A stretch of DNA of 23,757 nt, taken from a virus. The stretch's first letter is position 1. The number at the start of each line of letters is the position of its first letter. The position numbers were made by a program, and so were the translations under genes. Positions 1,080-21,854 of this stretch are shown in pieces. The stretch covers positions 1-23,757 of the IMG/VR virus record IMGVR_UViG_3300010883_000480; one strand, given 5' to 3'. The notes below the pieces were generated by a model that saw nothing but the letters and a program-made list of their open reading frames with translations, made no database searches and was not told the DNA's origin.

Positions 1080-1087
1080 TATTTATG
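1080..1087 (-). promoter_or_regulatory. T4-type late promoter box for the 1074 gene
   Basis: CATAAATA on the minus strand, followed by AATAC (5 nt) and then the ATG at 1074. A second TAAATA overlaps it one base from the ATG. Six base pairs separate it from the divergent box of the 1108 gene. There is no Shine-Dalgarno sequence. Confidence 0.7.
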
Positions 1088-1093
1088 CTCTAC

Positions 1094-1101
1094 CATAAAT
1101 A
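1094..1101 (+). promoter_or_regulatory. T4-type late promoter box for the 1108 gene
   Basis: CATAAATA followed by 6 nt and then a GTG start at 1108. This spacing matches other late genes in the window and favours the GTG over the internal ATG at 1135. It is back-to-back with the box at 1080-1087. Confidence 0.7.
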
Positions 1102-1107
1102 ATTTAA

Positions 1108-1434
1108 GTGAATAACGGTTATTATCCTTACAGTATGGGTATTGCAGATAAGCAATTTTCTAAAGACTTAAATCCTGCTAGTCAAATCAATAAATACAAA
1201 GAAGATGAGAAGCTGCAAAAGGCGCCACTTATTCTACCATACGATTTAGACACAGTAAAACAGTCTCTTGGTAATGCTTTCGTAGCACTTACACAAGTAC
1301 GTGCTTCCCTAGAAATAGCTCAAGGTAATAATGAAGTTAATTACGGTGCTATAGATAGTATTAAGAATACAATAGACGAAATTAATAAATTAATACTTGA
1401 TATACCAGAAGACTTGTCTAAAATTAGTATATGA
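1108..1434 (+). CDS. Hypothetical late protein, 108 residues
   Basis: I do not recognise this protein. It has a short Tyr/Asn-rich N-terminus, then a mostly helical region (residues about 45-105) of alternating hydrophobic and charged residues that could form a small coiled coil or helical bundle. There is no signal peptide, membrane segment or cysteine. The start is GTG at 1108, chosen because a late box sits 6 nt upstream; an ATG at 1135 would shorten it by nine residues. Its stop overlaps the start of the next gene (ATGA), so the two are probably translationally coupled and may work together. Late expression suggests a virion or assembly role. Confidence 0.65.
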   Translation: MNNGYYPYSMGIADKQFSKDLNPASQINKYKEDEKLQKAPLILPYDLDTVKQSLGNAFVALTQVRASLEIAQGNNEVNYGAIDSIKNTIDEINKLILDIPEDLSKISI

Positions 1435-1844
1435 AAATACTTGTTCAGATCTTTATTGTACTTTTAATTTCAAGCTTAGCAGGTTATTCATTTCAAAATA
1501 TTTTCGGACTTATAGAAGCATTTCTTGTTGCAACAGTTATACAGTTGATCGCCCCTTCTTTATACCAGTCACTCTCACGAAGCAAGGCGCGTATTTTAGC
1601 CTTAGAGAGTGAAATAAATGAATTTGTAGATATTAGTACGTGTAATGTTGCGTGCCCATGCGGAGGTTATACGTTTAATGAAATAGTTGTAGTAAGTGAA
1701 GATAGTGTTATTACTAATTGCCCGGTTTGTAGTAATGAGTATAAACTTACACCTATAGTAAGGGTGGTGCTAACTACAGAGCCTTTAAATCTTGGTAAAT
1801 CATACGAAGATAAAGAAGATAAAGAAGCTGTAATAGGTAGCTAA
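1431..1844 (+). CDS. Membrane-anchored zinc-ribbon protein
   Basis: This 137-residue protein has two closely spaced hydrophobic helices at residues about 3-21 and 24-45, separated by a short polar turn, so it is probably an inner-membrane hairpin. A soluble domain follows with Cys75-Pro-Cys77 and Cys97-Pro-Val-Cys100, a CxC/CxxC knuckle pair typical of a zinc ribbon; Cys71 is an extra candidate ligand. The C-terminal tail is charged. ATGA overlap with the previous gene and no box of its own place it in the same late transcript. The family is not recognised. Possible roles, all inferred, include membrane remodelling late in infection, superinfection exclusion, or a virion component. Membrane and zinc-binding features are well supported; function is unknown. 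Confidence 0.65.
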   Translation: MKILVQIFIVLLISSLAGYSFQNIFGLIEAFLVATVIQLIAPSLYQSLSRSKARILALESEINEFVDISTCNVACPCGGYTFNEIVVVSEDSVITNCPVCSNEYKLTPIVRVVLTTEPLNLGKSYEDKEDKEAVIGS

Positions 1845-1871
1845 TATAACTCACTTGAGATTATTTTGTTG

Positions 1872-1899
1872 TTGCAATTATAAATCATAACGTTATAAT
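1872..1899 (+). promoter_or_regulatory. Sigma70-like promoter for the 1906 gene
   Basis: TTGCAA (1872-1877), a 16-bp spacer, and TATAAT (1894-1899). The -10 box is followed by 6 nt (TAACGT) and then the ATG, so the predicted transcription start is the A of the start codon. No Shine-Dalgarno sequence precedes the gene. Confidence 0.65.
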
Positions 1900-1905
1900 T
1901 AACGT

Positions 1906-2340
1906 ATGAAAAAGTTAGTAACAATCTCAACTGTAATCCTAGTTATATCAATGCTATTTAAATATGGTGCTGAAGCGTATGCCAATCGAGGAGAAGACTA
2001 TCCCGAAGGACCTACTGTTAATATTGCTGATATATACATAGATATAGCAACTTCTACCTTCTATACAGCAGAACCCTTCAATACTGATAATTTATTTACA
2101 GGAACTGTAATTACCTTTAACGAGGCAGGTACTTTAATAGTTAAAGCAGGAGTTAAAGAAGGTAACTTTCACGGACCTTATACTGCTTGGCATGATAATG
2201 GTCAAGAGCGACTCTCTCTTATATGGAAAGATAGTACACACTTTAAAAAGTTCAAAGCATATCATTCTAATGGTGATCAGGTTGAGGGTGGTAATGAACT
2301 CGGTGAGAAAGTATTTTCAGGTGAAATAGTATTAGAATAA
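1906..2340 (+). CDS. Exported MORN/YwqK-like repeat protein
   Basis: This 144-residue protein starts with a clear signal peptide: Lys2-Lys3, a hydrophobic core at about 4-18, and a likely signal peptidase I site after AYA at residue 26. The mature part has short repeats of the MORN_2/YwqK type. The clearest unit contains GNFHGPY (86-92) and WHDNGQ (95-100). A partial unit before it starts near Gly66, and another after it has YHSNG at 119-123. Such repeats occur in bacterial surface and periplasmic proteins. The gene lies alone with its own sigma70-like promoter among late genes, which suggests expression by host polymerase, possibly early or constitutively. It may be a moron-type accessory gene acting at the host envelope; that role is inferred. 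No lipobox cysteine is present. Confidence 0.65.
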   Translation: MKKLVTISTVILVISMLFKYGAEAYANRGEDYPEGPTVNIADIYIDIATSTFYTAEPFNTDNLFTGTVITFNEAGTLIVKAGVKEGNFHGPYTAWHDNGQERLSLIWKDSTHFKKFKAYHSNGDQVEGGNELGEKVFSGEIVLE

Positions 2341-2361
2341 TAATAGGAACTATGTTATAAT
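2332..2361 (+). promoter_or_regulatory. Extended -10 sigma70-like promoter for the 2368 gene
   Basis: TATAAT at 2356-2361 is preceded by TG plus one base (extended -10). A weak -35 (TTAGAA, 2332-2337) lies 18 bp upstream, overlapping the end of the previous gene. The -10 is followed by 6 nt (AATAGT) and then the ATG, the same geometry as at 1906, again predicting a leaderless message. Confidence 0.65.
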
Positions 2362-2367
2362 AATAGT

Positions 2368-2634
2368 ATGAGTAATATTAACGAAACATACCAAAAGACA
2401 TTTAAATTTAATCTTAAAGATGGTACAACTAAAGTAATGCAGTTTGATGAATTTGTAAGATGGGCTTGTCTTATTGAAGGGGTAGGTAAGGTAGCAGATA
2501 AACTAGAAGAGAAGGGTGTTAATATGAATAATAACGATTGGGTTAAACCTCTCGCATTTCATAAATATGTTGAAGAGAGATTCCCTTCCCTCTATCAAGA
2601 CTTAAAAGTTGAATGTAAGTTAGGTAATATTTAA
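2368..2634 (+). CDS. Hypothetical small protein, 88 residues
   Basis: Not recognised. It is a soluble, mixed-charge protein with an N-terminal stretch that could form beta strands (residues 9-27) followed by helices. It has two cysteines (Cys34, Cys83) and no signal peptide or membrane segment. It has its own promoter with a perfect TATAAT 6 nt before the ATG, and so probably follows the same timing as the 1906 gene rather than the late genes. Its last 15 bases overlap the 3' end of the convergent glycosyltransferase gene. Confidence 0.6.
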   Translation: MSNINETYQKTFKFNLKDGTTKVMQFDEFVRWACLIEGVGKVADKLEEKGVNMNNNDWVKPLAFHKYVEERFPSLYQDLKVECKLGNI

Positions 2635-3456
2635 TTCCTTCTTAACTTCCTTAATAAAATCTTCTGAAACTACTTGTTTAAAGTTGTCAACTACCTCTTG
2701 CGTATCCTTTTCAACTTCTTGGAAAGCGATCATATAGTTTCTAAATCTTTGTTTTATATCGAGTTTATAAGGGGTACCGCTAGGCTTGGCAAATCGGTGA
2801 TTCCATCTTAAAAATGGTAAGCATATAGTTTCTTTACCGTTAAGTTTATACTTTTCATGTATATAACCCTCTTCACCGCCAAAACCTCTCATACTTTTGT
2901 TAAACCCTAACCAGGCGTCCTTTCTGCAGCTAAATAGACCCATACCATTACCAGGTATTGTGAATGGCTTACCATTAAATTTAGTACCTCTCTTATCTGT
3001 AGCCCACGCTCCCCACATATAACCACTCCACTCCTTAGAAGAAAAGTCGAAATGAGTAGAAACATTGTATAAATCATCGTATAATAGAGGTCCTTGTAAT
3101 AAATTACCGTTATCAAGACCTTTATCGTAGTAATCAAGTAACTTTTTTAGTGAACCTGGTTCTAGTAGAACATGACTATCCATAACTAATACGTATTCCG
3201 TTTCTGCTATATCAAAAATTTTACCTTTAATAAACGGACTACTATACTTTGTATATTCAAGATAGGTTTTTGGCTCAGTTATAGTATCAACGATATTTTT
3301 TAAAGCTTTACCGTGTTCACTTGCAGGATTGTTGTTTATAACAACAAACTCAACTCTATCCATTACCTCGGAATGGTACATTCTGAGTGATTGTAGTGTA
3401 AAAAACGCACCATCGTAATCATCATAAACACATATACCAATAGTCAGCTTACTCAC
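2620..3456 (-). CDS. GT-A fold glycosyltransferase, GT2/GalNAc-transferase-like
   Basis: This 278-residue cytosolic enzyme should transfer a sugar from a nucleotide-sugar donor. The N-terminus has a GT-A beginning (strand TIGICVY, then VEFVVINNN at about 35-43). The metal-binding motif is Asp93-Ser-His95, the DxH form used by polypeptide GalNAc-transferase-like enzymes. Further conserved-looking features are GNGMGLFSC (169-177), FGGEE (192-196, a likely catalytic acidic region) and RWNHRF (217-222). The start is GTG: an ATG two bases upstream runs straight into a stop, and the late box lies exactly 5 nt before the GTG. Late expression beside tail-fibre genes suggests it glycosylates virion proteins or a host surface polymer. 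The substrate is unknown. It overlaps the convergent 2368 gene by 15 bp. Confidence 0.8.
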   Translation of the reverse strand: MSKLTIGICVYDDYDGAFFTLQSLRMYHSEVMDRVEFVVINNNPASEHGKALKNIVDTITEPKTYLEYTKYSSPFIKGKIFDIAETEYVLVMDSHVLLEPGSLKKLLDYYDKGLDNGNLLQGPLLYDDLYNVSTHFDFSSKEWSGYMWGAWATDKRGTKFNGKPFTIPGNGMGLFSCRKDAWLGFNKSMRGFGGEEGYIHEKYKLNGKETICLPFLRWNHRFAKPSGTPYKLDIKQRFRNYMIAFQEVEKDTQEVVDNFKQVVSEDFIKEVKKELNIT

Positions 3457-3461
3457 ATGAC

Positions 3462-3469
3462 TATTTACA
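3462..3469 (-). promoter_or_regulatory. T4-type late promoter box for the glycosyltransferase gene
   Basis: TGTAAATA on the minus strand, then GTCAT (5 nt), then the GTG at 3456. This spacing is the best evidence for the GTG start. Confidence 0.6.
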
Positions 3470-3486: not shown

Positions 3487-4350
3487 CTACACCGGTATAG
3501 CGGTAATATTAGATACTGTTGTAAATGATGTATTCGGATTGAATGTTAAAGGTGCTGAAGTAATCGTTTGGGTTAAAACTTCAGTTGTTTCTAATCCTTC
3601 TATATGAGCATTTTTAAGAAAAAAGTCACCTACAGATAATGCTGTGTTTTGTGTAGAGATAGGAGTACAAAATGAATATCCAACAAAGACATTATCAAGA
3701 TTATCAAATTCCTTCAGTCTAAATGGTAGTTCCACGGTGGTTAGAGTTTGATATTTAGTGTTTACCTTCTTATCTATAGAGATCTTAGTACCTAAATTAG
3801 CATATCTAACTCTTAATGTTTCAAATTCATCAGAAGTTAGCGAAAAGGTCGGGGAGAAAGCTGATAAATGCTCATAAAACACTAAATTGTGAAAATAATC
3901 ACGGATACTAATGCTATTTTTCTTTATTTGATGCTCTCCAACACCGCCTCTACCGTTTATACCTGAAAGTCCATATAACCCTGTACTATCGAACACTACT
4001 TTAATAAGCTGACCACTTAAAGTAGTGGAATCAACCATTAAATCTATTTCACCTTCTGTTGTAATCGCAGAAGTAGGTGATTGCTCTGTTAATAGTTGAG
4101 TTTGACCTGATACTAATAGAGGATCAGTATCTCCAACATATTGACCTGGTAAGGATGATAGCTCTCCTGTTAAAGAAGTTAAAAAAGTACCAAAAGCATA
4201 CTCATAGTTACTATTGTATACATTATCCCCCGGTAATTTAAACTGTAACGACCATACTATGTCATAATTTGAGTTATAACTTAAATCAGTCTCTACAAAC
4301 TGATAATATCTTGCATCAGATGGTAGAAGAATGTCGGATGGGAAGGCCAT
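3487..4350 (-). CDS. Putative virion structural protein, 287 residues
   Basis: I do not recognise a named family. The protein is beta-rich, with many Ser, Thr, Leu and Tyr residues, few charged clusters, no signal peptide and no membrane segment. This composition is typical of tail-fibre or decoration proteins. It has a Gly-rich turn (GINGRGGVGE, about residues 131-140). It has its own perfect late box. It lies downstream of the fibre genes with only the 52-residue gene at 4373 between, so it may be a fibre-associated or receptor-binding protein; this is inferred from position and composition. Confidence 0.6.
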   Translation of the reverse strand: MAFPSDILLPSDARYYQFVETDLSYNSNYDIVWSLQFKLPGDNVYNSNYEYAFGTFLTSLTGELSSLPGQYVGDTDPLLVSGQTQLLTEQSPTSAITTEGEIDLMVDSTTLSGQLIKVVFDSTGLYGLSGINGRGGVGEHQIKKNSISIRDYFHNLVFYEHLSAFSPTFSLTSDEFETLRVRYANLGTKISIDKKVNTKYQTLTTVELPFRLKEFDNLDNVFVGYSFCTPISTQNTALSVGDFFLKNAHIEGLETTEVLTQTITSAPLTFNPNTSFTTVSNITAIPV

Positions 4351-4356
4351 TATACA

Positions 4357-4364
4357 TATTTATA
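4357..4364 (-). promoter_or_regulatory. Perfect T4-type late promoter box
   Basis: TATAAATA on the minus strand, the exact T4 late consensus, followed by 6 nt (TGTATA) and then the ATG at 4350. Confidence 0.75.
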
Positions 4365-4372: not shown

Positions 4373-4531
4373 CTAATTAAACGCGTCAATTATCTGATCG
4401 AGCTTACCTATAATGTCTTTTACTTTTACTAATTCTTCTAATTCTTCAGTCGAAAACGATAGTTTTAGTAAAAATTTCTTTAATTGAACGAAGTCTTCGT
4501 AATCAAGACCTTCTACTATTAATTCTTCCAT
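4373..4531 (-). CDS. Small acidic helical protein, 52 residues
   Basis: An intact frame runs from ATG at 4531 to TAG at 4373. The protein starts MEELIVEGLDYEDF and is rich in Glu, Asp, Lys and Leu. It looks like two or three amphipathic helices with heptad-like Leu/Val/Ile spacing. A late box sits exactly 5 nt upstream, as at clearly real genes, which is the main reason to call it. It fits the gap between two minus-strand structural genes (22 bp to the next start). The function is unknown. Small helical proteins beside fibre genes are sometimes assembly chaperones, but nothing here proves that. Confidence 0.6.
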   Translation of the reverse strand: MEELIVEGLDYEDFVQLKKFLLKLSFSTEELEELVKVKDIIGKLDQIIDAFN

Positions 4532-4536: not shown

Positions 4537-4544
4537 TATTTACT
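4537..4544 (-). promoter_or_regulatory. T4-type late promoter box for the 52-residue gene
   Basis: AGTAAATA on the minus strand, then TATAC (5 nt), then the ATG at 4531. It lies immediately downstream of the stop of the 4549-6057 gene. Confidence 0.6.
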
Positions 4545-4548: not shown

Positions 4549-6057
4549 TCAAATGCCATATCCATGTACAGTTACTATTATATTTTGATTGGTAATTTGT
4601 CTAGCGAGATAAATCTTATTATTTACTTTATCAACTCTAGCAGTAAATTGCGTATAACCTCCGATATTACCTCTATTTGTTCCATACAACATAGATAGAA
4701 GAACTTTTTTAGGACTAACGTCAGGTGCTAGATTATTATCGTGGGAACTGTAAACAAATGTACGAACATAATCACCTCCACCGCCATTTTGAGCAGGGCT
4801 AGCAACGCCGTATATCATTTTAGCATTTGCCGGTATACCATATTGAGATAGTGAAACCTCTTCCCATGACGCCATTCCGTTTGGCATTAGGTCATTCCAT
4901 ATCTCTACTGGTTCATCTAAAAATATACTTTTATAAATAGCATTATCTTCCTTGTATCCAGATAATCCTACTTCAATTGTACCGCTTAAAAATTCTGTTA
5001 CAGTATCAGTAATATTAACTCCATTTAAGGTTGCAGATAAAGGTGTACTAAAGTTAATAGTAGGAGCTTGTACACTATCCTGGAATGCTTTAATAATAAA
5101 CGTAGTACCAAAAGCAGAAAGCTCGTTAGTATCGGTACTATGACCTGAGGCTATACTAAATGTTGTAGATAAAAACGGATCATTTACGTTTGTACCGTAC
5201 AATGCACTATTAGTTAAATTAGGTAAGTTAAAGTTAGTAGTATCACCACCGTACCTATTACCTATTACAGCAGACAAGTCTGGGTAATCAGCACCAGCTA
5301 CTGAAGAACCGTTACATTTTAACCAACCATAAGGTACAAACTCAGCTCCTGTTACAAAAGGTACTATTGTACCTGCAGGTATTTGATTTGCAGTAGTAGT
5401 TGGTACAGTACTGGTAATAACAGTAGGCAAACTCCACGATAATTTATTATTAGTATCCGATATAAGAAAACTATTGTTTGTAGATGGAGCTACCGAGGGA
5501 AAATCATAATTAATTGAGCTAATTTTAAGCTTAGAAGGTATAGTTAAGTAGCTAGTAGAGTCAACTGTACGCTGTTTAATCTCATTAATACTAATACTAC
5601 TGCTTAAGGCTATTCTATTACTAGTGTCAAGCTCAATACTATTACCTAGTGCATCAGCAGAAAAATTACCAGCGGAAAGGGTACCTACTGTCGCGCGTTG
5701 AGCAGCGTCAATTACAATAGACGCATTGCCTGAACTCAATAAATTTGATACTGTTTCCCAATCAGCAGCATTTGAGCCATTATTTTGCTTAATACGTTGG
5801 AATGTATTGTTATCATTATCGAAAGCTAAATCATTTATCTCACCAGTTTCAAGAGTAATATCAGGTCTACTACCTAAAAATCTATTACCGATTAAGTTAC
5901 CTCCAACCGTAGTGCCGTCTCCTATAAACAATCGCGTAGTATCAGAAGCATATCCTAATTCACCTTCGTCTAAGGTAATATTCTTTCTATCTTCGTTAGT
6001 ACCTCTACGTACCAGTAGTTTTAAGAGTGTATTTTCTAATATTTCAATTGAAGCCAT
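4549..6057 (-). CDS. Tail fibre protein: Mtd-like N-terminus, tail-collar domain, extra C-terminal domain
   Basis: This 502-residue protein has three regions. Residues about 10-60 match the N-terminal module seen in Mtd-type and many tail-fibre proteins (VRRGT at 16-20, GELGY near 32-36, FIGDGTTVGG near 44-53). Residues about 226-288 form a phage tail-collar domain (IPAGTIVPF, then GWLKCNG, then NLPNLT), closed by IIKA near 320. The last 180 residues are a separate domain absent from the paralogue at 6066, with a Gly-rich loop (QNGGGGDY), and are a good candidate for the receptor-binding tip. It follows the paralogue by 8 bp with no box of its own, so it is the third gene of a late operon starting at 8168. 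It has no Shine-Dalgarno sequence. Confidence 0.8.
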   Translation of the reverse strand: MASIEILENTLLKLLVRRGTNEDRKNITLDEGELGYASDTTRLFIGDGTTVGGNLIGNRFLGSRPDITLETGEINDLAFDNDNNTFQRIKQNNGSNAADWETVSNLLSSGNASIVIDAAQRATVGTLSAGNFSADALGNSIELDTSNRIALSSSISINEIKQRTVDSTSYLTIPSKLKISSINYDFPSVAPSTNNSFLISDTNNKLSWSLPTVITSTVPTTTANQIPAGTIVPFVTGAEFVPYGWLKCNGSSVAGADYPDLSAVIGNRYGGDTTNFNLPNLTNSALYGTNVNDPFLSTTFSIASGHSTDTNELSAFGTTFIIKAFQDSVQAPTINFSTPLSATLNGVNITDTVTEFLSGTIEVGLSGYKEDNAIYKSIFLDEPVEIWNDLMPNGMASWEEVSLSQYGIPANAKMIYGVASPAQNGGGGDYVRTFVYSSHDNNLAPDVSPKKVLLSMLYGTNRGNIGGYTQFTARVDKVNNKIYLARQITNQNIIVTVHGYGI

Positions 6058-6065: not shown

Positions 6066-7493
6066 TTAGTAGTTAAAAATTGGTATTGCGTATCTATCAA
6101 AAGTAGCGCCATTATTTCGAGTACTACCGGATAAAGCTAGTGTTAAAAATCCTGCTGAACTGAGAATTAATGAATTACCGTCTGAATCAGTAGTAGAATA
6201 TGTTGTGCCATTATGTGGCAATCCTTCCGATCCTTGGTTAGGTGCACCTGTAAATAAGCCAGATTCAATGGATGACGCCTTAATTATATAGTTCGTAGCA
6301 ACAGCATTTAAATTAGCTCCGTCGCCCTCAGTTGTACTACCTGTTAAATACCACGTTTGGGAGGTAGGGGGAAGATCACCTGAGCCATATTGTAACACAT
6401 TACCGCCTGTTAAATTAGGTAATCTAAAGTCAGTCGCGACTGAACTACCGTAATTTGTACCTATAACTTCATAAAGCTCGCTGTACCCATTACGTGATAC
6501 ATAATGTCCGTTGCAAAGTAGATAACCATCAGGTACGTTACCTATAGCTGCGGCATGTGGTAATATAGCACCAACAGGTACAAAATCAGCCCCTGTTAGC
6601 GATGTCGCTGTTAAACAATCAAAGAAAGTAGATTGAGGTATATTTGATATACCGTAGTTATCTATTGAAAGTTGAGGCATTTCATAAACTCCTGATACTC
6701 CAGTCTGTATAAGAGATAAACGTCTGTTAGTAAAGTCAAAATTTTCTGTATTTACACCAGATAAAATATTTTGAATTTGGTTGGTGGAGTTGTTATACAC
6801 CAACCCTTCTCCAAACGCTTGATTATCAAATGAGCTAAAAGATACTGAATTAGATTTTGCGGAGGAAGTTTGTAGTTTATTGTCAATATCGATCTCTAGA
6901 CCTTGACCAACGTTTATACTTATTGGAGCTCCAGCTCCCCCAACCAATCCACTCGATAAAGCTGTTGTTTTGATTTCCCGCTCCGTAATAGAACTTGCTT
7001 TTAGTGATAGTTTTGAAGAAGAAAGCTCTAAGAAATCAGAATTAAAATCAATTGAAATCGAACTACCGTCTCTTACCAGACCACTACCAAATGCAGTATT
7101 AGTTATATCATTGGCGTCTAAAGAGCTTTGCTTAACAGTTAGTGTATTTGAAGCTGTAAATTCAATATTTTCATTATCTAATGCAGGTCCCATGTATGAC
7201 CAACCGGTAAGTGAAGAGTCATATTCGCTTGCAGTCAGAGTGTATAGTTTTGAATTAGCATAACCGATATCTCCTATTTGAGCGCCTGTAACATTACCTA
7301 AGCCGGATTCTAAATTAAAAACGCCGAAGTTTTTATTACCTACAACCCTACCACCAGATAAAGAGCCATCTCCTACGAACACTCTTTTAGTGTCTATAGT
7401 ATAACCTAACTCCCCTTGATCTAATACTAATTGCTTACGTTGATCGTCTGATCCACGTCTCACTTTTATTTTTACTATTGTAATATCTGGCAT
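6066..7493 (-). CDS. Tail fibre protein: Mtd-like N-terminus, shaft repeats, tail-collar domain
   Basis: This 475-residue paralogue of the 4549 product has the same N-terminal module (VRRGS at 11-15, GELGY at 28-32, VFVGDG near 39-44). A central shaft has three repeats about 46 residues apart, recognisable by AFGSGLV (about 134), ALSSGLV (178) and AFGEGLV (226). A collar domain runs from about 308 to 372 (GAILPH, GYLLCNG, RLPNLTGG), then an IIKA strand and a short C-terminal domain. It should be part of the adsorption apparatus at the tail tip. It lies 12 bp after the 7506 gene stop, with no clear late box, so it is probably co-transcribed from the promoter at 8175-8182. Confidence 0.8.
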   Translation of the reverse strand: MPDITIVKIKVRRGSDDQRKQLVLDQGELGYTIDTKRVFVGDGSLSGGRVVGNKNFGVFNLESGLGNVTGAQIGDIGYANSKLYTLTASEYDSSLTGWSYMGPALDNENIEFTASNTLTVKQSSLDANDITNTAFGSGLVRDGSSISIDFNSDFLELSSSKLSLKASSITEREIKTTALSSGLVGGAGAPISINVGQGLEIDIDNKLQTSSAKSNSVSFSSFDNQAFGEGLVYNNSTNQIQNILSGVNTENFDFTNRRLSLIQTGVSGVYEMPQLSIDNYGISNIPQSTFFDCLTATSLTGADFVPVGAILPHAAAIGNVPDGYLLCNGHYVSRNGYSELYEVIGTNYGSSVATDFRLPNLTGGNVLQYGSGDLPPTSQTWYLTGSTTEGDGANLNAVATNYIIKASSIESGLFTGAPNQGSEGLPHNGTTYSTTDSDGNSLILSSAGFLTLALSGSTRNNGATFDRYAIPIFNY

Positions 7494-8174: not shown

Positions 8175-8182
8175 TATTTATG
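8175..8182 (-). promoter_or_regulatory. T4-type late promoter box for the fibre operon
   Basis: CATAAATA on the minus strand, 6 nt (TATTAT), then the ATG at 8168. It overlaps the start of the gap after the 8183-10237 stop and probably serves all three fibre genes. Confidence 0.7.
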
Positions 8183-12562: not shown

Positions 12563-12570
12563 TATTTAAG
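12563..12570 (-). promoter_or_regulatory. T4-type late promoter box
   Basis: CTTAAATA on the minus strand, 7 nt (TATAATA), then the ATG at 12555. It is in the 42-bp gap after the 12598 stop; nothing else is visible in that gap. Confidence 0.55.
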
Positions 12571-13239: not shown

Positions 13240-16028
13240 AATACCAAGGAGTTATTACTAACAGTTAAAGGCTCGGAGCTCAAATTAAAGCTAAACGAAT
13301 TTAATGTATCAGTATTTTCAAATGTAAATGTCTTGTTATCATAAACAGCTCTTACATAATCATCTCTTACAAACGATACGTTACTATTATTATCTACGAA
13401 AAAGTTATGGCTAGCTATAACCGGCGACATGTTTTGATCTTTTACTAAATAACTTAAATTAAATAAGTCTACATCACCTCTATACGTAATAACAGGGGTA
13501 TCAACTTGATCATATAATACATCGTACCCGGATAATATAAATCTATTTATATTATTACTAAGCTCTAAATTATTCTTAGGAAATATCTTAGTATTTGTTT
13601 TAGCTGTATAACTATACTCATATATTTCAGGGTAGACAGATAGTGTTTTAGTTTGTGTAGAATCCTGCTCAACTTTAAGCTTATAGTAATATACATTAAG
13701 ATCCTTTTTAAATCTATTACTTATTTTATCAAAATTGTTAGTATTTAAAGGTAGAGAAATATTATCATTAAACGGATCTTTAAATTTATTACCTTCAAAT
13801 CTTAATTGCTCAATTACAAAGAAACTACTTGTCTGTACGAAAAGCGTATCGTACATTAAGTCGAAATTTAAAACCCTACTAGAAAGGTCGCTTACAATAG
13901 TTGAACTATACTTAGATGATAAATATGGTATTAAATCAAAAATCTCCCCGCCTGTGTTCGTTGATGTATTTTTAACGTAAATTTTACCTTGTAAGTTTTT
14001 AGTGTTAAATTTATCAAAGGCTGCAGACGTATTGTTAACTACAGTTGTTGTCTCTAAAACCGTATCATCATAAAAATAACTGCCTGGGGCTAAGTTATAT
14101 TCGAAGTTTAATTTGTCAGTAAATCTTCCTCCTTCATAGCTACTATACAAACTATCTAAACCAGTAAGTTGAAGATTTAAGGAAAAATTACCAGTTAAAC
14201 TCTCAGTAACTGCAGTAGTATCATCCACTAAAGCACGTTGTATGGAAGCACTACTTAAACTAGCAATACCTCCTTCTATTAAATTGGAATAGTAGAATTG
14301 CTGTGTAGTACTAGCAAATGCGCTTAAATCTGAAGAGATAGGATCTGGTAAAAATCCAGAATCAGACTTCATAAAATAAGCACCATCTATAACACCTGCT
14401 GTATCAATATTACTGTTTAAAAAATCGACGTTAGTAGTTGTAGGCTCTATAAGCTCTTCATAAGGGCAGAAATATCTAAAGAATATATTATATGCAGAAG
14501 ATGGAAAAAAGGGTGAAGTTTCACGTGCAGTTAACCCGTTGGTGAACGAAGATAACCCTGATCTTTTAGTTTCAGTAAAGGTAGTTGTATCAGCTGTATT
14601 ATAGTTAAAGTTAAACCCTTCATTGTATAAACTATCATAAAATTGATAACCATTTAATATAAGATTTTTTACTGTTGGGGGATTTTTAACTGTTAAATTA
14701 TCTCTAAATTGGTTATTATCTTTTACTAATCCAAAAATATTTCCAAAGAGATCCTTTTTACTATCATCTATATAACCTTGATCAAAGAGAAATGCTAAAT
14801 CAGTATTTTCTGTTCTTTTGTCAAATTTAGAACTATAACCAATATAGGATGTATCTGCCTTACCAGTATTAGGTTGTAATTTGGCTACACCACTGGTAAT
14901 ATTTTTAAAGAAATTACTAGGTTCGATGTTAAAAACTAGTATATCCTGATTATTAGTAAATACTTTCGGGTCAGGAAATATAAAAAGACTATCAGGCTCG
15001 TACTGTTTACGTAATTCAAAGTCAATAGCCGGCGCTTGTATAACATTAATACCTGTATTAGTAGGTTTAAAGAATCCAGCCTCTCGTTTTGTACTTATTT
15101 TATTAGCAAATACACTAGCTGTGGTTGGATGTTGCTGATTTAAGAAATCACTATACGGCTTCTCCGCTTTGATAAGAATATCGTATACATATTCACCGGC
15201 TGAATTAGAAGAGATATAATAAAAATCTGTACCAATATATTTTTCAGTAAGGGTTCTCTTATTATCAAAAATACTATCCGCCTCTAAATATAACTTTAAA
15301 ATTTCACTATAACCTTCAAATACCTCTGATACTAACTCGGAGTTACTAGAAAGAAATATATTATCAGTTGGTAGATCATCCGGACTATAACTTAAAAAGT
15401 GCTTACCGTAATACGTCTCGTCTGGTTCTTGGTTAAAGTAGGAAGTATAAACATCAAAGTATTCAGTTAATGAAATACGTATATTGTTTTTTATATTATT
15501 AAAGTTATAATCTATTGAACCATCTTCACGATTATCTAGAAAATTAAGTACTGTACTGTAAGCACTTTTAACAACATTAAAGTTACTAGTTTTAGTTTTA
15601 ACCTTATTTGAAGTGTTGTATAAATTAACGCGTTCTAGTCTATAATATTCTATAACCTCTCTTAGCTTCTTACTAAAAAATGAAATTGCTATAGCTATAT
15701 CGTTATTATCATCAAAATCAAGATACTGTAGAAATTTCTTCTCTGTCTTATTGCTAAAATTTATAGTAATTTCCTTTAAAAAGTCTCTATATCTATCTAT
15801 TATAAGACTTTTATTAGTGGAATTCTTATTATTAATTTTATTATTCCAGTTATTTATATATGCAGCGTAGTACCCTTGCAATGTATCCGGTTCATAATCT
15901 ACCTGCACTGTTTTTATAAACTCAATCAGGGAAAAGGCTTGGTTTCGATCTAAAGCATTAGAATCTAATACATTACTATTAGTAACAGACTGTGGTACTT
16001 CAGGATAACCTTTTATTACATTTTCCAT
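13236..16028 (-). CDS. Large virion/baseplate protein, 930 residues
   Basis: This is the longest protein in the window. Residues about 30-290 look helical with many charged and Tyr/Phe residues. Residues 340-360 contain LFIFPDP (348-354), a motif I recall from large structural proteins of uncultured marine T4-like phages. The rest is beta-rich and Asn/Ser/Thr-rich. There is no membrane segment, signal peptide or enzyme motif. It is preceded by a late box 6 nt before its ATG and followed by the PKD-like 12598 gene with a 4-bp overlap. Its size and place two genes after gp6 make it a possible functional counterpart of T4 gp7 (about 1000 residues), a baseplate-wedge protein. I see no sequence match that would prove this. 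Confidence 0.65.
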   Translation of the reverse strand: MENVIKGYPEVPQSVTNSNVLDSNALDRNQAFSLIEFIKTVQVDYEPDTLQGYYAAYINNWNNKINNKNSTNKSLIIDRYRDFLKEITINFSNKTEKKFLQYLDFDDNNDIAIAISFFSKKLREVIEYYRLERVNLYNTSNKVKTKTSNFNVVKSAYSTVLNFLDNREDGSIDYNFNNIKNNIRISLTEYFDVYTSYFNQEPDETYYGKHFLSYSPDDLPTDNIFLSSNSELVSEVFEGYSEILKLYLEADSIFDNKRTLTEKYIGTDFYYISSNSAGEYVYDILIKAEKPYSDFLNQQHPTTASVFANKISTKREAGFFKPTNTGINVIQAPAIDFELRKQYEPDSLFIFPDPKVFTNNQDILVFNIEPSNFFKNITSGVAKLQPNTGKADTSYIGYSSKFDKRTENTDLAFLFDQGYIDDSKKDLFGNIFGLVKDNNQFRDNLTVKNPPTVKNLILNGYQFYDSLYNEGFNFNYNTADTTTFTETKRSGLSSFTNGLTARETSPFFPSSAYNIFFRYFCPYEELIEPTTTNVDFLNSNIDTAGVIDGAYFMKSDSGFLPDPISSDLSAFASTTQQFYYSNLIEGGIASLSSASIQRALVDDTTAVTESLTGNFSLNLQLTGLDSLYSSYEGGRFTDKLNFEYNLAPGSYFYDDTVLETTTVVNNTSAAFDKFNTKNLQGKIYVKNTSTNTGGEIFDLIPYLSSKYSSTIVSDLSSRVLNFDLMYDTLFVQTSSFFVIEQLRFEGNKFKDPFNDNISLPLNTNNFDKISNRFKKDLNVYYYKLKVEQDSTQTKTLSVYPEIYEYSYTAKTNTKIFPKNNLELSNNINRFILSGYDVLYDQVDTPVITYRGDVDLFNLSYLVKDQNMSPVIASHNFFVDNNSNVSFVRDDYVRAVYDNKTFTFENTDTLNSFSFNLSSEPLTVSNNSLVL

Positions 16029-16034: not shown

Positions 16035-16042
16035 TATTTATT
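16035..16042 (-). promoter_or_regulatory. T4-type late promoter box
   Basis: AATAAATA on the minus strand, 6 nt (ATATTA), then the ATG at 16028. It abuts the stop codon of the 16043-18133 gene. Confidence 0.65.
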
Positions 16043-18133
16043 TTAGATTATAGATAAGCTACTGAACAACGAGTTACGGATTGCAATATCTTCGATATTA
16101 TTATCTCCTTTGAAACTACTTAATGCGGTAGATATGTCAAACGTATTTAAAATATCCGCATAATTTATAATTCCATCATATACAGTACCTTCAACTCCTG
16201 AAGTGTACTCATAAAAAGTATAAAACTTAGATATATCGGTTGAAGTAAAGGTAGTGGGTAGTACTAATGGCCATCCCCAATCGGTGTTAAATTCACTCAA
16301 CTTATATTGCAATGTATCTACAGCGCAGATTGGTTGGTAAGTATTCAAGAGAGAATAGTTATTACTAAACTTTTCCAAAGCTACTATATCTGTTCCTGCA
16401 GTTACTGTGTATGAATTTATATCGATTTCATTCCCTAAGTTTTTTCCATATTTTTCCTTTGTAGTAATACCTCTATCGGAAAAGTTTTCCTTAAACTTGT
16501 TTTTAGTTCCTTTAAATTGATTATAATCAGTAGAAAATAAACTCAGTAATCTTACTATTTCAGGTGGAAAGTTAAAGAGTGAATCATCATATACATTAGC
16601 TGTTTCATCTAATAGATTGCTTATACTAATAAGACTATTTAAATCACAAGTATCGATGTTAGTTCTATTATTAACAAAGTTAAAGATTTTCTCATTTAAT
16701 TTCTTACCGAGTGATGAACTATTAGAACTTAAATTACCAAAAATAGATCCTAACAAATCATCAAAAAGTATATCTTTATCTAATAAAATTTCTTGAAATC
16801 TTAAGCTTTTAAATACTTCCGTATAATCAATATCTTCATTCGTTTTTGCAAAATAGTAATAATCTTTAGGGTAGATACTAAAACTAACACTTCTACCGGT
16901 CAACTGAAAAGTCTCAGCTGAGTTTGTAAACTCAGCACTAACACCTAACGTAAAAGAATCGAACCCAGAAAGTCCATCATCATATGTTAAATTTCCATAA
17001 AACCAATAATCTGTATCTATACCGGAAATAGAACTATTCAGACTAGTTATACTATAGTAAGATGTATTTACTTCTTGGTTATTACTATCATATAATCTAC
17101 CTGTAATACTACCATTCAACGTTAACCCCTTTACTGTATAATTAGATATACTTGTAGGCTTAATAAAGAACGGTATAGGAGCCTTTTTAAACTGTACAGG
17201 GCTTATATCGAAAATTTGCGCTTCGTCGTCTCCCTCTTCAGTTAATCCATTATCATTAATGGTTAAGGAACTTAAATTAGCTGAAAGTGATGTAGTACCA
17301 ACGTTAGCAGTTAAAGATATAGATAAATTATTATTATAATTATTAAGGGAATACTCTAAGCTACTATCTTTACTAAAAATTTTATTTCTATCTTTAAATA
17401 AGTTAATTGCTATTCCACTTGCAAGTTGATCTGATGAAAAATAATATGATTCACGGCCTGATGTACCAACAAACACACTATCAACATCTGTACTTTTAGC
17501 ATCCACAATTGCATTGCCAGATAACTTTACATATACATTCGAACCACTAACGCTTATAAAAGGAATTTCGTTATACTCAAATGCTGATAAGTTCTCTATA
17601 TAAGACTTTTCGTAGAAAGAGTAATATTTTTGAAGGTGATTAAACTTATAAGGTGTAAGTTCGAAATAGTTAGGTATAGTTAACCCCGATACTGTATAGA
17701 ATATATTACTACTATCTTGATAAAACGGAGCTTTATTAGTTATAGTAATCGGTTTTGAAAATTCACCTGCAGATAATGATAGAATATCATCTTCTATATC
17801 TACTGTAAATGTATTTTCAATATAATCATAAATACTTATATCAGTAGAATAAGAGGCTAATAAAGAATTATTCTCGCAATCATTGACCACCATTCTAACC
17901 TTATACTCTCCTGGTTGTGTATAAGTATGTGTTGCTGTTAACCCGGTACCTACTGTACCATCACCAAAGTCAAATAACGCTTCTAACTTATTTATATCAG
18001 AATAAAAATCTGTAGAAGGTAAGTCTGCTTTAAAAGTTAAAGGAGTGATATCTAGATTATAAGAAGAAAGAACACTTTCGTTTTTATAATCCTGTACTTC
18101 GAATAGTGCATAAGTTGTATTTATATTACTCAT
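16043..18133 (-). CDS. PKD-domain baseplate/virion protein, 696 residues
   Basis: Residues about 30-102 form a clear PKD domain: FDFGDGT (54-60) and HTYTQPGEYKV (69-79). Residues about 130-430 are beta-rich with several sandwich-like stretches. The C-terminal third, from about 440, changes to a more helical pattern with Leu/Asp-rich segments (for example DKDILFDDLLGSIF), so the protein looks bipartite: a surface beta part and an assembly part. Its start overlaps the end of the gp6 gene by 8 bp, so it is translated from the same message as gp25 and gp6, which ties it to the baseplate wedge. It could replace part of T4 gp7 or gp8; this is inferred from gene order. The PKD call is firm. Confidence 0.7.
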   Translation of the reverse strand: MSNINTTYALFEVQDYKNESVLSSYNLDITPLTFKADLPSTDFYSDINKLEALFDFGDGTVGTGLTATHTYTQPGEYKVRMVVNDCENNSLLASYSTDISIYDYIENTFTVDIEDDILSLSAGEFSKPITITNKAPFYQDSSNIFYTVSGLTIPNYFELTPYKFNHLQKYYSFYEKSYIENLSAFEYNEIPFISVSGSNVYVKLSGNAIVDAKSTDVDSVFVGTSGRESYYFSSDQLASGIAINLFKDRNKIFSKDSSLEYSLNNYNNNLSISLTANVGTTSLSANLSSLTINDNGLTEEGDDEAQIFDISPVQFKKAPIPFFIKPTSISNYTVKGLTLNGSITGRLYDSNNQEVNTSYYSITSLNSSISGIDTDYWFYGNLTYDDGLSGFDSFTLGVSAEFTNSAETFQLTGRSVSFSIYPKDYYYFAKTNEDIDYTEVFKSLRFQEILLDKDILFDDLLGSIFGNLSSNSSSLGKKLNEKIFNFVNNRTNIDTCDLNSLISISNLLDETANVYDDSLFNFPPEIVRLLSLFSTDYNQFKGTKNKFKENFSDRGITTKEKYGKNLGNEIDINSYTVTAGTDIVALEKFSNNYSLLNTYQPICAVDTLQYKLSEFNTDWGWPLVLPTTFTSTDISKFYTFYEYTSGVEGTVYDGIINYADILNTFDISTALSSFKGDNNIEDIAIRNSLFSSLSII

Positions 18134-19955
18134 CTATTACTACAATTTTACTAGATAATGAATTAGGGTTAATAAAGTATGGAAACTTAAAATACGGCAG
18201 CGTTGTATTTTGATTTACTAGCTCTATATCAGCGGTAGGGTATAGAGGGTTATATGATACAAGAGAAATACCCTTAAACGAAATATTTTCGCTATTATTT
18301 CTAGTCTCTATTCTCTTAATACCTTCTATACTTAAGAGAGTTGATGTTAGGGTGTTCAATGCTAACTCTTGGCCTAGAATATTTGCTACCGGATCAAAGA
18401 AATTTAATATAGCAGCGCTTACCTGAGACTTAAGCCTCTCACTGTTTATCTTATTTCTAGACTCTCTTACAACTACTAAAGTTGTATCTTGACTGATATC
18501 AGGAACTACATCACTTTGATTAGAAATACCTAAATCAAATGCCATATATATTGGATCTCTAGGCACTACTTCTTGTGAAAGACTCTTCTTTTCATTAGCA
18601 GAATCGATTATAAGATTCTTGAGAGAGTTACTTAAGAACTCAGGGTAATCCCCATCATTAGCTACTGTAAATCTTGGAACGGTAAATATATTAACGTTAT
18701 TAAAATCACAACTATCTGCAAAGTTAATTTGATTTATCAGAACTCTATTTGACTTATCCGGATCAACACAAATATTGTAAAAGTATTGAATATATTCATT
18801 TATAAACGATTGGTTATTTACCACTCTTGAATCAATAATTATATTATTGAAACTCTTATCCATAAAGGATTCATAATCTTGCGTAGAAACCAGCCTTAAT
18901 TGAGAGTTAAACACCCTAGGAGCGTTTTCTCTTATTTGTTCGACTGTTTCTTCATCTACTACAGGTGAGGAATTATTAGGATTGTTAAAAGTAAGTAGCG
19001 CGTTATTAGCTGCCGTTACAAAAGTAGTTGAATCTTTATTAGTATAAGTATCATTAAAAATCTTTCTTTGTCGTGAACTATCATAGACAAATAACTTATC
19101 ACCGTTAATCGCGTTCTTGCTTATAATGCCGCGCTGATTGTCAGATAAAATGTAATTTACTGATACAGTACTGCCCTGCGTTAAAATTTTACCAGAAACA
19201 CCATCACCAAACTTAATAATAAAGTGACCATTTTCATTAAGTCTCTTTTCAAAAACTCTTTCATTTTTATCTGCAATATAAAGACTATCAACTTCATTAT
19301 ACACATAATATAATCCCGTTTCAGCTTCCTTAACATATACACTTAAAGTGTTATCAGCTATAAATCTACCATCATTACTGTCTAGTATATTATCTACAAC
19401 AATATTTAAAGTTTCAAATTCACTTCCTTGAGCTGTGTAATCTGGATATTCACCAACTGTACCCTGATACAATATAACATTTTCGTTTAATACGTCTAAA
19501 CTCTGCTTCTTAGCCTCTGATATAGTAAAGCTATAATCTTTGTTTGTAGTATATTGTATATTATCTACTAAAAAATATGAATACTTTTTAATGGTGTAAT
19601 TGCCAGTTGTTAAGCTAGCTGCGGCTGTCGCGTTAATAGAAGCTAAAGAAGTTTGTTTACCTGACGGTTTGTAGCCAATAGTTTTGACTATCTTATTCAT
19701 ATTTTCATATAACGTCGCTTGATCAAAAGAGACTTCAGAAGCGGTATTGTTAAGATAGAATAATAGTACGTGGTATGAGTACGCTACTATATCTATAACA
19801 GCGGCTAAATTACTACCTTCAAAATTTTGATCTGTAAACTTTTCATTCTCATTTAATCGGTTTACAATAAAATCCTTTAAACTAACAGCATCAAAAGCAG
19901 TGTAAGCGTCTTGCGGTAAATTAAAATCTAGAAATTCGTTATTTTTATCAGCCAT
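18126..19955 (-). CDS. 6: Baseplate wedge protein gp6 (baseplate J-like)
   Basis: This 609-residue protein (T4 gp6 is about 660) has the gp6/baseplate-J signature. The N-terminal region FEGSNLAAVIDIVAYSYH to GYKP spans residues about 45-97. IIKFGDGVSG (246-255) with a following GSTVSVNY strand is the typical J-domain core. The segment QLRLVSTQDYESF is the conserved Q-R-x-x-D-Y-x motif. gp6 forms the iris-like ring of wedge dimers that holds the six wedges together and rearranges on sheath contraction. It lies 5 bp after the gp25 stop with no box or Shine-Dalgarno sequence and overlaps the 16043 gene by 8 bp, so gp25, gp6 and the PKD protein form one late operon. High confidence. Confidence 0.92.
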   Translation of the reverse strand: MADKNNEFLDFNLPQDAYTAFDAVSLKDFIVNRLNENEKFTDQNFEGSNLAAVIDIVAYSYHVLLFYLNNTASEVSFDQATLYENMNKIVKTIGYKPSGKQTSLASINATAAASLTTGNYTIKKYSYFLVDNIQYTTNKDYSFTISEAKKQSLDVLNENVILYQGTVGEYPDYTAQGSEFETLNIVVDNILDSNDGRFIADNTLSVYVKEAETGLYYVYNEVDSLYIADKNERVFEKRLNENGHFIIKFGDGVSGKILTQGSTVSVNYILSDNQRGIISKNAINGDKLFVYDSSRQRKIFNDTYTNKDSTTFVTAANNALLTFNNPNNSSPVVDEETVEQIRENAPRVFNSQLRLVSTQDYESFMDKSFNNIIIDSRVVNNQSFINEYIQYFYNICVDPDKSNRVLINQINFADSCDFNNVNIFTVPRFTVANDGDYPEFLSNSLKNLIIDSANEKKSLSQEVVPRDPIYMAFDLGISNQSDVVPDISQDTTLVVVRESRNKINSERLKSQVSAAILNFFDPVANILGQELALNTLTSTLLSIEGIKRIETRNNSENISFKGISLVSYNPLYPTADIELVNQNTTLPYFKFPYFINPNSLSSKIVVIDE

Positions 19956-19960
19956 AATGT

Positions 19961-20449
19961 TTATATGAAGTTATATCCATTACTATTTAATACTGATCTA
20001 AGTGAAAGACCGTATACATTAAGCGATGGAACGTTTATTTGTAGTTGAATATTGTATTGTTGCTCATCTTCTAGACCCTGAACCTCAACATTTTCTAACT
20101 CTATTCTTGGTTCAAATCTAGGCAAATTAACCTTTATATCTTCTTCTATATCTTCTTCTGTAAACACATCTACAGGTTCGAATATAAACCTCCTTAAATC
20201 AATACCAAATTCCGGACTTAATATCTTTTCGCCTGGTGATGTTAAAAGAGCATTAGCAATACTATTTTTAATAGCCTCTATATCATATAACCCAGCTACG
20301 TCTTTTAATTCTTCCTTCCTATTAAGTTGAGCGTTATAGGAGTAAGAGTTGTTTATATCTAGAAATAGATCTTTATAAAGATAATTCTGCTTAATAGCAT
20401 TATCATCAGCCTTACTTACTGATACGGTATCTATCTTTATTAGAGCCAT
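19961..20449 (-). CDS. 25: Baseplate wedge protein gp25 (GPW/gp25 family)
   Basis: This 162-residue protein is slightly longer than T4 gp25 (about 130) because of its N-terminus. The family core is intact: GEKILSPEFGIDLRRFIFEP at residues 73-92 and the diagnostic EPR motif at 113-115 (FEPRIELENVEV). gp25 resembles T6SS TssE and sits where the baseplate wedge meets the first sheath ring, so it nucleates sheath assembly. It is the first gene of the gp25-gp6-PKD late operon. Its late box lies 5 nt before the ATG, next to the stop of the small basic-protein gene upstream. High confidence. Confidence 0.95.
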   Translation of the reverse strand: MALIKIDTVSVSKADDNAIKQNYLYKDLFLDINNSYSYNAQLNRKEELKDVAGLYDIEAIKNSIANALLTSPGEKILSPEFGIDLRRFIFEPVDVFTEEDIEEDIKVNLPRFEPRIELENVEVQGLEDEQQYNIQLQINVPSLNVYGLSLRSVLNSNGYNFI

Positions 20450-20454
20450 GTATA

Positions 20455-20462
20455 TATTTAAT
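20455..20462 (-). promoter_or_regulatory. T4-type late promoter box for the gp25-gp6 operon
   Basis: ATTAAATA on the minus strand, then TATAC (5 nt), then the ATG of gp25 at 20449. It lies in the 15-bp gap before the gp25 gene. The same TATAC spacer occurs before the 4531 start. Confidence 0.65.
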
Positions 20463-20464
20463 GG

Positions 20465-20755
20465 TTACTTCTTTTTCCACTGCTGCCTCTTTGGACCTCT
20501 TTTCTTATATTTCTTAGCTCTCTTACGAAGCTCAGTTACAGGACCCTTACAACTAGCACCTGCTAGCTTAACGCGACCAGGACTACTTTCTGCATCTTCC
20601 TCATCGGAATGTTTGCTCTTGTTAAGCTTATTACCAGCCTTTTTAGCTGCTTTATACGCTTTACTACCCTTACGAGCACTCTTACCACCGCGCTTCTCCT
20701 TAGCGTTTATATTGGCCCATAACCCCTCTGTAAAAAATTCTTTAAATGTTTTCAT
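20465..20755 (-). CDS. Small very basic late protein with capsid-targeting-like N-terminus
   Basis: The ATG at 20755 is preferred; an in-frame GTG lies two codons upstream but falls inside the preceding gene. The 96-residue product starts MKTFKEFFTEGLW, very like the capsid-targeting sequence of T4 internal protein I (MKTYQEFIAE). FTE/G would fit a prohead-protease cleavage site. The rest is dominated by Lys, Arg and small residues, with an acidic patch near the middle (DEEDAE) and a Lys/Arg-rich end. It would bind DNA or RNA non-specifically. The start overlaps the upstream stop by one base (TAATG), so it is the second gene of a unit with the 20755-21216 gene. Likely an internal head protein packaged with the genome; inferred. 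Confidence 0.65.
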   Translation of the reverse strand: MKTFKEFFTEGLWANINAKEKRGGKSARKGSKAYKAAKKAGNKLNKSKHSDEEDAESSPGRVKLAGASCKGPVTELRKRAKKYKKRGPKRQQWKKK

Positions 20756-21216
20756 TACCACTTCTTACAGCTCCAGTAACCAGCAGAGAACTTATCTTTT
20801 TTCTGATCGCACTTATGACGTGCACGGAATGACTTACGACGCTTTGGAATACTCTTTTTGATCTTCATGTTTGGATCCCCGTAACGAACAATCTTCTCTT
20901 TACCATCCTTACAAGCTTTAACAACAAACTTCTTAGAGCCACCAGATGTTCTACGAGGTGTGTTACACTTCATACGATCTTTATCAATCTTACCTTCAGC
21001 ATCTTCTGTAGGGATTTCTTCCCCTTCTGTTTTCTTTCTCGGCCCGTAGTTCTTTCTATCTGTTGGATCACTAGCAAATTTTGGACCCCCCCTTCCATCT
21101 GATTTAGGATTACCTTTTCTTAGTTTACCTTTGCTGGTATAGTAATGATCATCAGGCGCGCTTCTAGTTTCATTTAGAGATTGTAGGATACCCTTAACTA
21201 AATTGTTAAATTCCAT
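20755..21216 (-). CDS. Basic Cys/Trp-motif late protein, viral DUF6321-like C-terminus
   Basis: This 153-residue protein has an amphipathic N-terminus (MEFNNLVKGILQSLNE), a Lys/Gly/Asp-rich low-complexity middle, and a compact basic C-terminal domain (about residues 95-153). The domain contains VRYGDPNM, KRRKSFRARHKCD and a final GYWSCKKW. I recall this Arg/Lys plus Cys/Trp module from many phage and algal-virus proteins (I believe DUF6321, not checked). Its function is unknown; the charge suggests nucleic-acid binding and the cysteines possible metal binding. The N-terminus fits a capsid-targeting leader with a candidate site after LNE. It has its own late box, 5 nt before the ATG, and is followed directly by the 20465 gene. 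A run of seven G (minus strand) lies in the middle of the coding region. Confidence 0.65.
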   Translation of the reverse strand: MEFNNLVKGILQSLNETRSAPDDHYYTSKGKLRKGNPKSDGRGGPKFASDPTDRKNYGPRKKTEGEEIPTEDAEGKIDKDRMKCNTPRRTSGGSKKFVVKACKDGKEKIVRYGDPNMKIKKSIPKRRKSFRARHKCDQKKDKFSAGYWSCKKW

Positions 21217-21221
21217 ATTAT

Positions 21222-21229
21222 TATTTAAT
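21222..21229 (-). promoter_or_regulatory. T4-type late promoter box for the 21216 gene
   Basis: ATTAAATA on the minus strand, then ATAAT (5 nt), then the ATG at 21216. Six base pairs separate it from the divergent box of the 21249 gene. The box plus spacer is identical to that of the 21860 gene. Confidence 0.65.
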
Positions 21230-21235
21230 AGATTG

Positions 21236-21243
21236 CATAAATA
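21236..21243 (+). promoter_or_regulatory. T4-type late promoter box for the 21249 gene
   Basis: CATAAATA, then ATTGT (5 nt), then the ATG at 21249. Back-to-back with the box at 21222-21229. Confidence 0.7.
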
Positions 21244-21248
21244 ATTGT

Positions 21249-21833
21249 ATGGCTAAGGTAAAGAAGTTTGTTAATCTTTTTGAAAGTTACATGAAACGTT
21301 TTGAACGAGGCGGGTTTCTCGTAGGTGATATTTTCAAGTTTAATGATAATTTTAAATCATCTGAAGAATATAAGTGTTTAGGTAGTAACGTTCAGGAATT
21401 ATTAGACCAGATGATAGATTCTGGGTTACATGTACGTGTGGTAGGTATTAAGGATACTAGTCCATCTCGTTACCCTGCTAATTCTGATACCACCTCACTC
21501 GATGTAGTTTTAAATGTAGCACTTGATAATGGAGGAGGTCGGATGACTCACTATTGCTCAATACCTTGCTGTTTAGGAGAGCCATTACAGTATGCACCAA
21601 ACTTACCACCGATTCCAGATGCTATGAGACGTAACGATAGAGTTACTATTAAGCCTGAAGAGGCAGAGGAAGATACTAATAACATTCAAAATAAAACAGA
21701 TAGAGGTAATGGTGAGCTTTCTAATACGGAAAGGTCACTACCAAAAACTAATACAAAGATACCTAGTAATCCTGTAACCCCATCACCTGCTGTTACTTCA
21801 TATACACAAAATTATCTTGGAGATCTTAGTTAA
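21249..21833 (+). CDS. Late virion-associated protein, 194 residues
   Basis: The N-terminal 110 residues look like a compact conserved domain: KKFVNLFESYMKR, then RGGFLVGDIFKFNDNFK (about 20-36), VRVVGIKDTSPSRYP (about 62-76) and a DNGGGRMTHY turn. I recall the same pattern from structural proteins of uncultured marine T4-like phages, but know no function. Residues about 110-125 are Pro-rich, and the remaining 70 residues are Asn/Thr/Pro/Glu-rich and probably disordered. There is no membrane segment or signal peptide. It has its own late box 5 nt before the ATG, in a divergent arrangement with the 21216 gene. Probably a virion or assembly protein; the role is unresolved. Confidence 0.65.
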   Translation: MAKVKKFVNLFESYMKRFERGGFLVGDIFKFNDNFKSSEEYKCLGSNVQELLDQMIDSGLHVRVVGIKDTSPSRYPANSDTTSLDVVLNVALDNGGGRMTHYCSIPCCLGEPLQYAPNLPPIPDAMRRNDRVTIKPEEAEEDTNNIQNKTDRGNGELSNTERSLPKTNTKIPSNPVTPSPAVTSYTQNYLGDLS

Positions 21834-21846
21834 ATACCCAGCTACC

Positions 21847-21854
21847 ATTAAATA
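21847..21854 (+). promoter_or_regulatory. T4-type late promoter box for the 21860 gene
   Basis: ATTAAATA, then ATAAT (5 nt), then the ATG at 21860. It is in the 26-bp gap after the 21249 gene. Confidence 0.65.

Follow-up and report, generated by a model that had tools for sequence, protein, structure and literature searches.

TAAATA boxes set directly before start codons as candidate late promoters of leaderless mRNAs in an uncultured T4-like phage lineage

Leaderless messenger RNA (mRNA) is usually a minority or a cellular trait. The late promoters of phage T4, which are associated with gp55, gp33 and gp45, consist of the box TATAAATA, which spans -13 to -6 relative to the start of transcription (PMC1524935). 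These T4 boxes are found mostly 27-28 nucleotides (nt) before the ATG and are followed by a leader with a Shine-Dalgarno sequence. An a/gC variant of the late promoter has been reported for Aeh1 (PMC2988020), and in the T4-like phage Syn9 the boxes are located 9-48 nt upstream of genes. With respect to leaderless expression, most middle and late transcripts of the Thermus phage phiYS40 are leaderless (as reviewed in PMC3594737), and leaderless genes of Actinobacteria and Deinococcus-Thermus carry the sequence TANNNT about 12 bp before the start (PMC3160421, PMC12340547). The current work concerns a stretch of 23,757 bases constituting the IMG/VR virus record IMGVR_UViG_3300010883_000480 (named here “the window”), in which the TAAATA core of the T4 late promoter is positioned 5 to 7 nt before the start codon of twelve genes. 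Based on the sequence, we consider it probable (at about 0.87) that these boxes are T4-type late promoters read by a gp55-type polymerase, from which transcription would start at the start codon itself or 1-2 nt upstream of it, and that the late mRNAs would thus be leaderless.

The window is 67% AT and was assigned to a T4-like phage on the basis of gp6 and gp25 (baseplate wedge), a clamp loader, a dUTPase, paired tail-collar proteins and a gp10-like baseplate protein. Its closest cultured relatives are remote, with 26-27% identity for gp6 and 41% at best for the clamp loader. When the window gp6 and clamp loader were used as queries to locate the lineage, two scans yielded 158 loci from uncultured relatives, some of them on contigs of 150-212 kilobases (kb), from a lineage which, going by IMG sample numbers, is presumably present in both freshwater and sea.

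All twelve boxes of the original prediction were found at their predicted positions (Table 1), the spacer being defined throughout as the number of nucleotides between the end of the box and the start codon. The predicted chance expectation of about 0.1 was recomputed as 0.106 for three positions before 24 starts, to be compared with the 12 cases seen (P ~4e-21, a value to be read in the knowledge that the three spacings of 5, 6 and 7 were picked after the data were seen). It is the placement of TAAATA that is enriched and not its number, which is not raised in the window (70 found versus 74.7 in shuffled sequences). The boxed starts are considered sound because 11 of the 12 open reading frames (ORFs) offer no alternative start before the upstream in-frame stop, the ORF starting at 4531 having a single TTG. 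Before the start at 1074 a second TAAATA, overlapping the first, is present at spacer 1. A thirteenth candidate, at spacer 4 before the clamp loader gene, was discounted, as it shares bases with the stop codon upstream and has no conserved counterpart in G012, the nearest relative.

According to the original prediction, the leaderless interpretation would be refuted if the enrichment vanished over whole genomes; in the relatives the enrichment instead grew. Among 1772 ORF starts from 159 related, partly redundant loci, the box is present at spacer 5 in 360 cases, at spacer 6 in 216 and at spacer 7 in 47, with approximately 0-20 cases at most other positions. Since ORF calling was mechanical and included spurious ORFs in the large relatives, tests that are independent of the assigned start, measuring the distance between TAAATA and the ATG that follows it, were relied upon there. 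This distance displays a single sharp peak at exactly 5 nt in each of six genomes (G001, G003, G005, G006, G010 and G012). The sequence TAAATA-N5-ATG occurs 30-49 times per genome in six relatives of 150-212 kb (41-49 times in five of these), the reversed control giving 0-4 per strand, and its 48, 49 and 43 occurrences in G001, G003 and G005 (198-212 kb) compare with 4.3, 4.9 and 7.2 expected. The ATG at this spacing opens an ORF of at least 50 amino acids (aa) in 83-98% of cases (45/48, 48/49 and 40/43 in the latter three genomes), as opposed to 17-24% at other spacings. Conservation is also apparent at individual loci: in all 54 loci whose sequence extends upstream of gp6, either gp25 or gp6 has a box in front of it at spacer 5-8, for proteins down to 52% identity, and between the window and G012 both box and spacing survive despite changed flanks, for example before the start at 4531.

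The original prediction had allowed that the AT-rich motif could be a signal for translation rather than a promoter. In the form considered here, transcription would start farther upstream and TAAATA would act in the manner of the Kozak-like initiation signals of Shine-Dalgarno-poor Bacteroidota. Such a role would suit an AT-rich motif located near the start codon in a lineage devoid of Shine-Dalgarno sequences, which do not exceed the control in any gene class (0-2% of late-box genes versus 0-10% in a control interval). It fails, however, because operon-internal genes would need such signals equally and yet lack the motif. In the window, a start-adjacent promoter (12 late boxes and two TATAAT sequences at spacer 6) is present before each of the 14 genes that are preceded by a gap of 14 nt or more, whereas the nine genes whose gap is 12 nt at most have none at 5-8 nt, the clamp loader gene having its unconserved box at spacer 4 (Fisher 7.6e-7, with the last gene, whose upstream gap is not visible, counted in). 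The same contrast is obtained in G012, where 17 of 19 genes carry a start-adjacent promoter versus none of nine packed genes (Fisher 8e-6), and even with the clamp loader gene left out the count for operon-internal genes of the window is 0/8. Moreover, several gaps of 14-17 nt contain nothing but the box and its spacer, the hexamer is that of the T4 late promoter core at T4 coordinates, and a preference for a pyrimidine at -1 is confined to this spacing. As judged from this sequence context, the TAAATA box is a promoter and not a translation signal; the alternative is rejected and we regard it as scarcely credible.

With the A of the ATG set as +1, the spacer-5 boxes match the T4 coordinates base for base: the TAAATA core is present, and positions -13 and -12 are weakly constrained to purine/pyrimidine, which resembles the a/gC variant of Aeh1. 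At spacer 5, 83-100% of sites carry a pyrimidine at -1, a proportion that drops to 31-42% when the spacing differs. A pyrimidine at -1 followed by a purine at +1 is the usual configuration of a bacterial transcription start, and the preference at spacer 5 therefore fits initiation on the A of the ATG. If the initiation distance is fixed, spacers 6 and 7 would result in a leader of 1-2 nt. One could suppose instead that the boxes are indeed late promoters whose RNAs start well upstream, or are processed, to give short leaders as in T4, since in T4 and Syn9 tens of nucleotides separate box and gene. The layout of the present lineage offers little room for this, as the 27-28 nt and intervening Shine-Dalgarno sequence of T4 are replaced by 5-6 nt and none, and a bacterial-type polymerase does not initiate within or upstream of its own -10 element; short leaders are in our opinion very unlikely.

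The further features shared with the T4 late promoters are the absence of a -35 element, an AT-rich start region, and a location before virion genes (gp25 and other baseplate/tail genes in the window), the late boxes being sparse in the early region. The search for a gp55 homologue, proposed in the original prediction, was positive in the relatives: all nine of at least 89 kb encode one (phrog_234, E 1e-24 to 1e-27), and these proteins align with T4 gp55 across the sigma2-like core. No ribosomal protein S21 or initiation factor IF3, phage factors that might favour leaderless mRNA, was found.

A second start-anchored motif was obtained in the relatives from an unbiased search for position-fixed hexamers. 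It is located at approximately -25 to -15 and reads TTAAAAACTAG in G001, TAAAAACTA in G003, AATTAAAACCGAA in G005 and AAGGAACT in G010, and downstream of it come a -10 box at -12 to -7 (TACAAT or TATAAT), six nucleotides and the ATG. While the element itself differs between sub-lineages, its distance to the -10 box and to the ATG is constant, and in G001, G003 and G005 all 83 aligned sites have a pyrimidine at -1. These promoters occupy 7.5-73 kb in G001, 123-145 kb in G003, 110-171 kb in G005 and 58-75 kb in G010, regions that hold RNA ligases, a DNA ligase and RecA/KaiC-like ATPases and that are largely separate from those of the late motif in G001, G003 and G010, with more overlap in G005. 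From gene content and map position, this second class would represent early or middle promoters. The window gene starting at 2368 carries the exact AGGAACT form, also kept in G012. The early region of G005 additionally encodes a poly(ADP-ribose) polymerase-type catalytic domain (L192:12268-13500), driven by an early-type promoter.

The similar placement of the early TATAAT/TACAAT boxes, together with a weak hexamer NTAAAT at -12 to -7 of the late promoters, could indicate that an unaltered host sigma70-like factor, and not gp55, reads both classes. Against this, the late box lacks the key A at -11, having a T there, late and early boxes lie mostly in different regions and the phages encode their own gp55 homologue. 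In addition, the early -10 box ends at spacer 6 and the late box at spacer 5, the one-base offset by which sigma70 and gp55 promoters should differ when both initiate at the ATG. Reading of both boxes by the host factor is consequently judged to be quite unlikely. Early-type elements also precede some transfer RNA (tRNA) genes, and because their spacing to the mature 5’ end varies from 0 to about 14 nt, they back the promoter interpretation and not an exact start position, for which the tRNA genes were rejected as proof. Among the approximately 19 phage tRNAs is one called as tRNA-Pyl, on the minus strand of G005 (L195:16159-16232), whose CTA anticodon could make it an amber suppressor.

In the mechanism that we propose, the late box would be read by an RNA polymerase equipped with a gp55-type sigma factor of the phage, transcription would start on the start codon or 1-2 nt before it, and ribosomes would initiate on the 5’-terminal AUG or GUG of the leaderless late mRNA. 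The sigma70-type promoters (TATAAT/TACAAT-N6-ATG) would follow the same layout, to which the larger relatives add the lineage-specific element at -25 to -15. Operon-internal genes, also lacking a Shine-Dalgarno sequence, would probably be reached by translational coupling. Several observations weigh against this proposal. No gp55 was seen in the window itself, a 23.8 kb genome fragment; the gp55 homologues of the relatives (L200-L208) end in shorter acidic tails without an evident counterpart of the clamp-binding sequence in the T4 gp55 tail; and a gp45-like clamp was matched weakly, in four of ten relatives, with no Pfam gp45-C match. The coupling of late transcription to the clamp may accordingly differ in this lineage. 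Furthermore, spacer-6 sites have mostly A at -1, and their messages may carry one extra base 5’ of the start codon, and two early-type elements directly adjoin tRNA genes, leaving insufficient space for a start at the usual distance. Of the leaderless late regulon originally predicted, the core is upheld by spacing, promoter context, the pyrimidine at -1 and the gp55 homologue of the relatives; the arrangement is nevertheless not late-only, given the sigma70-type promoters placed alike, and is not confined to this lineage.

Outside the lineage, TAAATA-N5-ATG occurs 0-14 times among 13 T4-like isolates, the SAR11 phages HTVC008M (14) and Mosig (11) being highest. About a dozen of the 14 sites of HTVC008M (NC_020484) precede ORFs of at least 85 aa, including those of the DNA end protector, head closure and tail-tube cap proteins. 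These two cultured, T4-like Pelagibacter phages thus share start-adjacent boxes before real genes, although such sites are a minority in them and the other late boxes of Mosig are located at 8-27 nt, often with Shine-Dalgarno leaders. Previous searches for middle and late promoters in pelagimyophages failed (PMC7029224), a failure to which the position of promoters right at the start codon may have contributed. The present lineage would have leaderless middle/late mRNAs in common with phiYS40, and differs in that its apparent early genes are start-adjacent too. We know of no T4-type late box in phiYS40. With the leaderless genes of Actinobacteria and Deinococcus-Thermus it shares the lack of a Shine-Dalgarno sequence and a -10 box whose end is separated from the start codon by 6-7 nt; those are cellular genes read by the primary sigma factor in genomes where many other genes have Shine-Dalgarno sequences, in contrast to the phage late box and the -25 to -15 element described here. 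No report of T4-type late promoters in start-adjacent use was found in the literature searched, which covered few subscription papers.

An actinobacterial host, considered because of the leaderless habit of these bacteria, is unsupported. WhiB was not found, and two scans of bacterial and archaeal genomes for host clues returned no close gp6 relative and only remote clamp loaders. The psbA and psbD photosystem genes, by which membership of the cyanomyoviruses was judged, were absent from eight large relatives, both cyanophage controls being positive.

Two pairs of divergent late genes in the window share a single intergenic region of 32-33 nt (1075-1107 and 21217-21248) with two opposed boxes about 10 bp apart, and divergent start-to-start gaps in the relatives cluster at 28-35 nt, most often 32-34. 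Two polymerases at such opposed boxes probably exclude each other. The window further encodes adjacent paralogous tail proteins (4549-6057 and 6066-7493), both of which combine a Major-tropism-determinant N-terminal domain with a Collar domain.

Table 1 Candidate promoter elements and associated genes in the window (positions from the first base of the window; spacer in nt).
Feature	Position	Strand	Spacer	Gene and remarks
Late box TAAATA	1080..1085	-	5	643-1074
Late box TAAATA	1096..1101	+	6	1108-1434, GTG start
-10 TATAAT, sigma70-type	1894..1899	+	6	1906-2340; weak TTGCAA at 1872-1877, 16 bp upstream
Early-type element AGGAACT	2345..2351	+		Motif and position as in ~15 copies in G010; conserved in G012
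-10 TATAAT	2356..2361	+	6	2368-2634
Late box	3462..3467	-	5	2620-3456, GTG start; box and GTG kept in G012
Late box	4357..4362	-	6	3487-4350
Late box	4537..4542	-	5	4373-4531; G012 flanks diverged, box and spacing kept
Late box	8175..8180	-	6	7506-8168, gp10 C-terminal domain-like
Late box	12563..12568	-	7	10234-12555
Late box	16035..16040	-	6	13236-16028
Baseplate wedge gp6	18126..19955	-		Operon-internal, without box at 5-7 nt
Late box	20455..20460	-	5	19961-20449, baseplate wedge gp25
Late box	21222..21227	-	5	20755-21216; back-to-back with box 21238..21243
Late box	21238..21243	+	5	21249-21833
Late box	21849..21854	+	5	21860-22360
Clamp loader (gp44-like)	22357..23277	-	4	TAAATA at 23282-23287 (discounted)
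-10 TATACT	23712..23717	-	8	23281-23703, dUTPase; start-adjacent promoter, less certain

Taken across both temporal classes, we lean towards a broader interpretation, in which the whole T4-like lineage would have given up leaders and Shine-Dalgarno sequences. Early/middle genes would be driven singly by start-adjacent promoters with a fast-changing, lineage-specific element at -25 to -15 (TTAAAAACTAG, AATTAAAACCGAA or AAGGAACT) that immediately precedes the -10 box and would be recognized by a further factor, and late genes by the gp55 box at -11 to -6, each transcription unit starting on its start codon. In this large phage lineage from aquatic metagenomes, the two main promoter classes alike point to leaderless mRNA, the position of the promoter relative to the start codon being fixed to the base. 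Sequence alone would suffice to predict transcription starts as well as start codons, and the gene-start calls of many uncultured phages would be repaired. The arrangement would imply a host that translates a 5’-terminal AUG efficiently and a T4 late module that tolerates fusion of the promoter to the gene start, and HTVC008M offers a cultured system in which the central claim can be tested.

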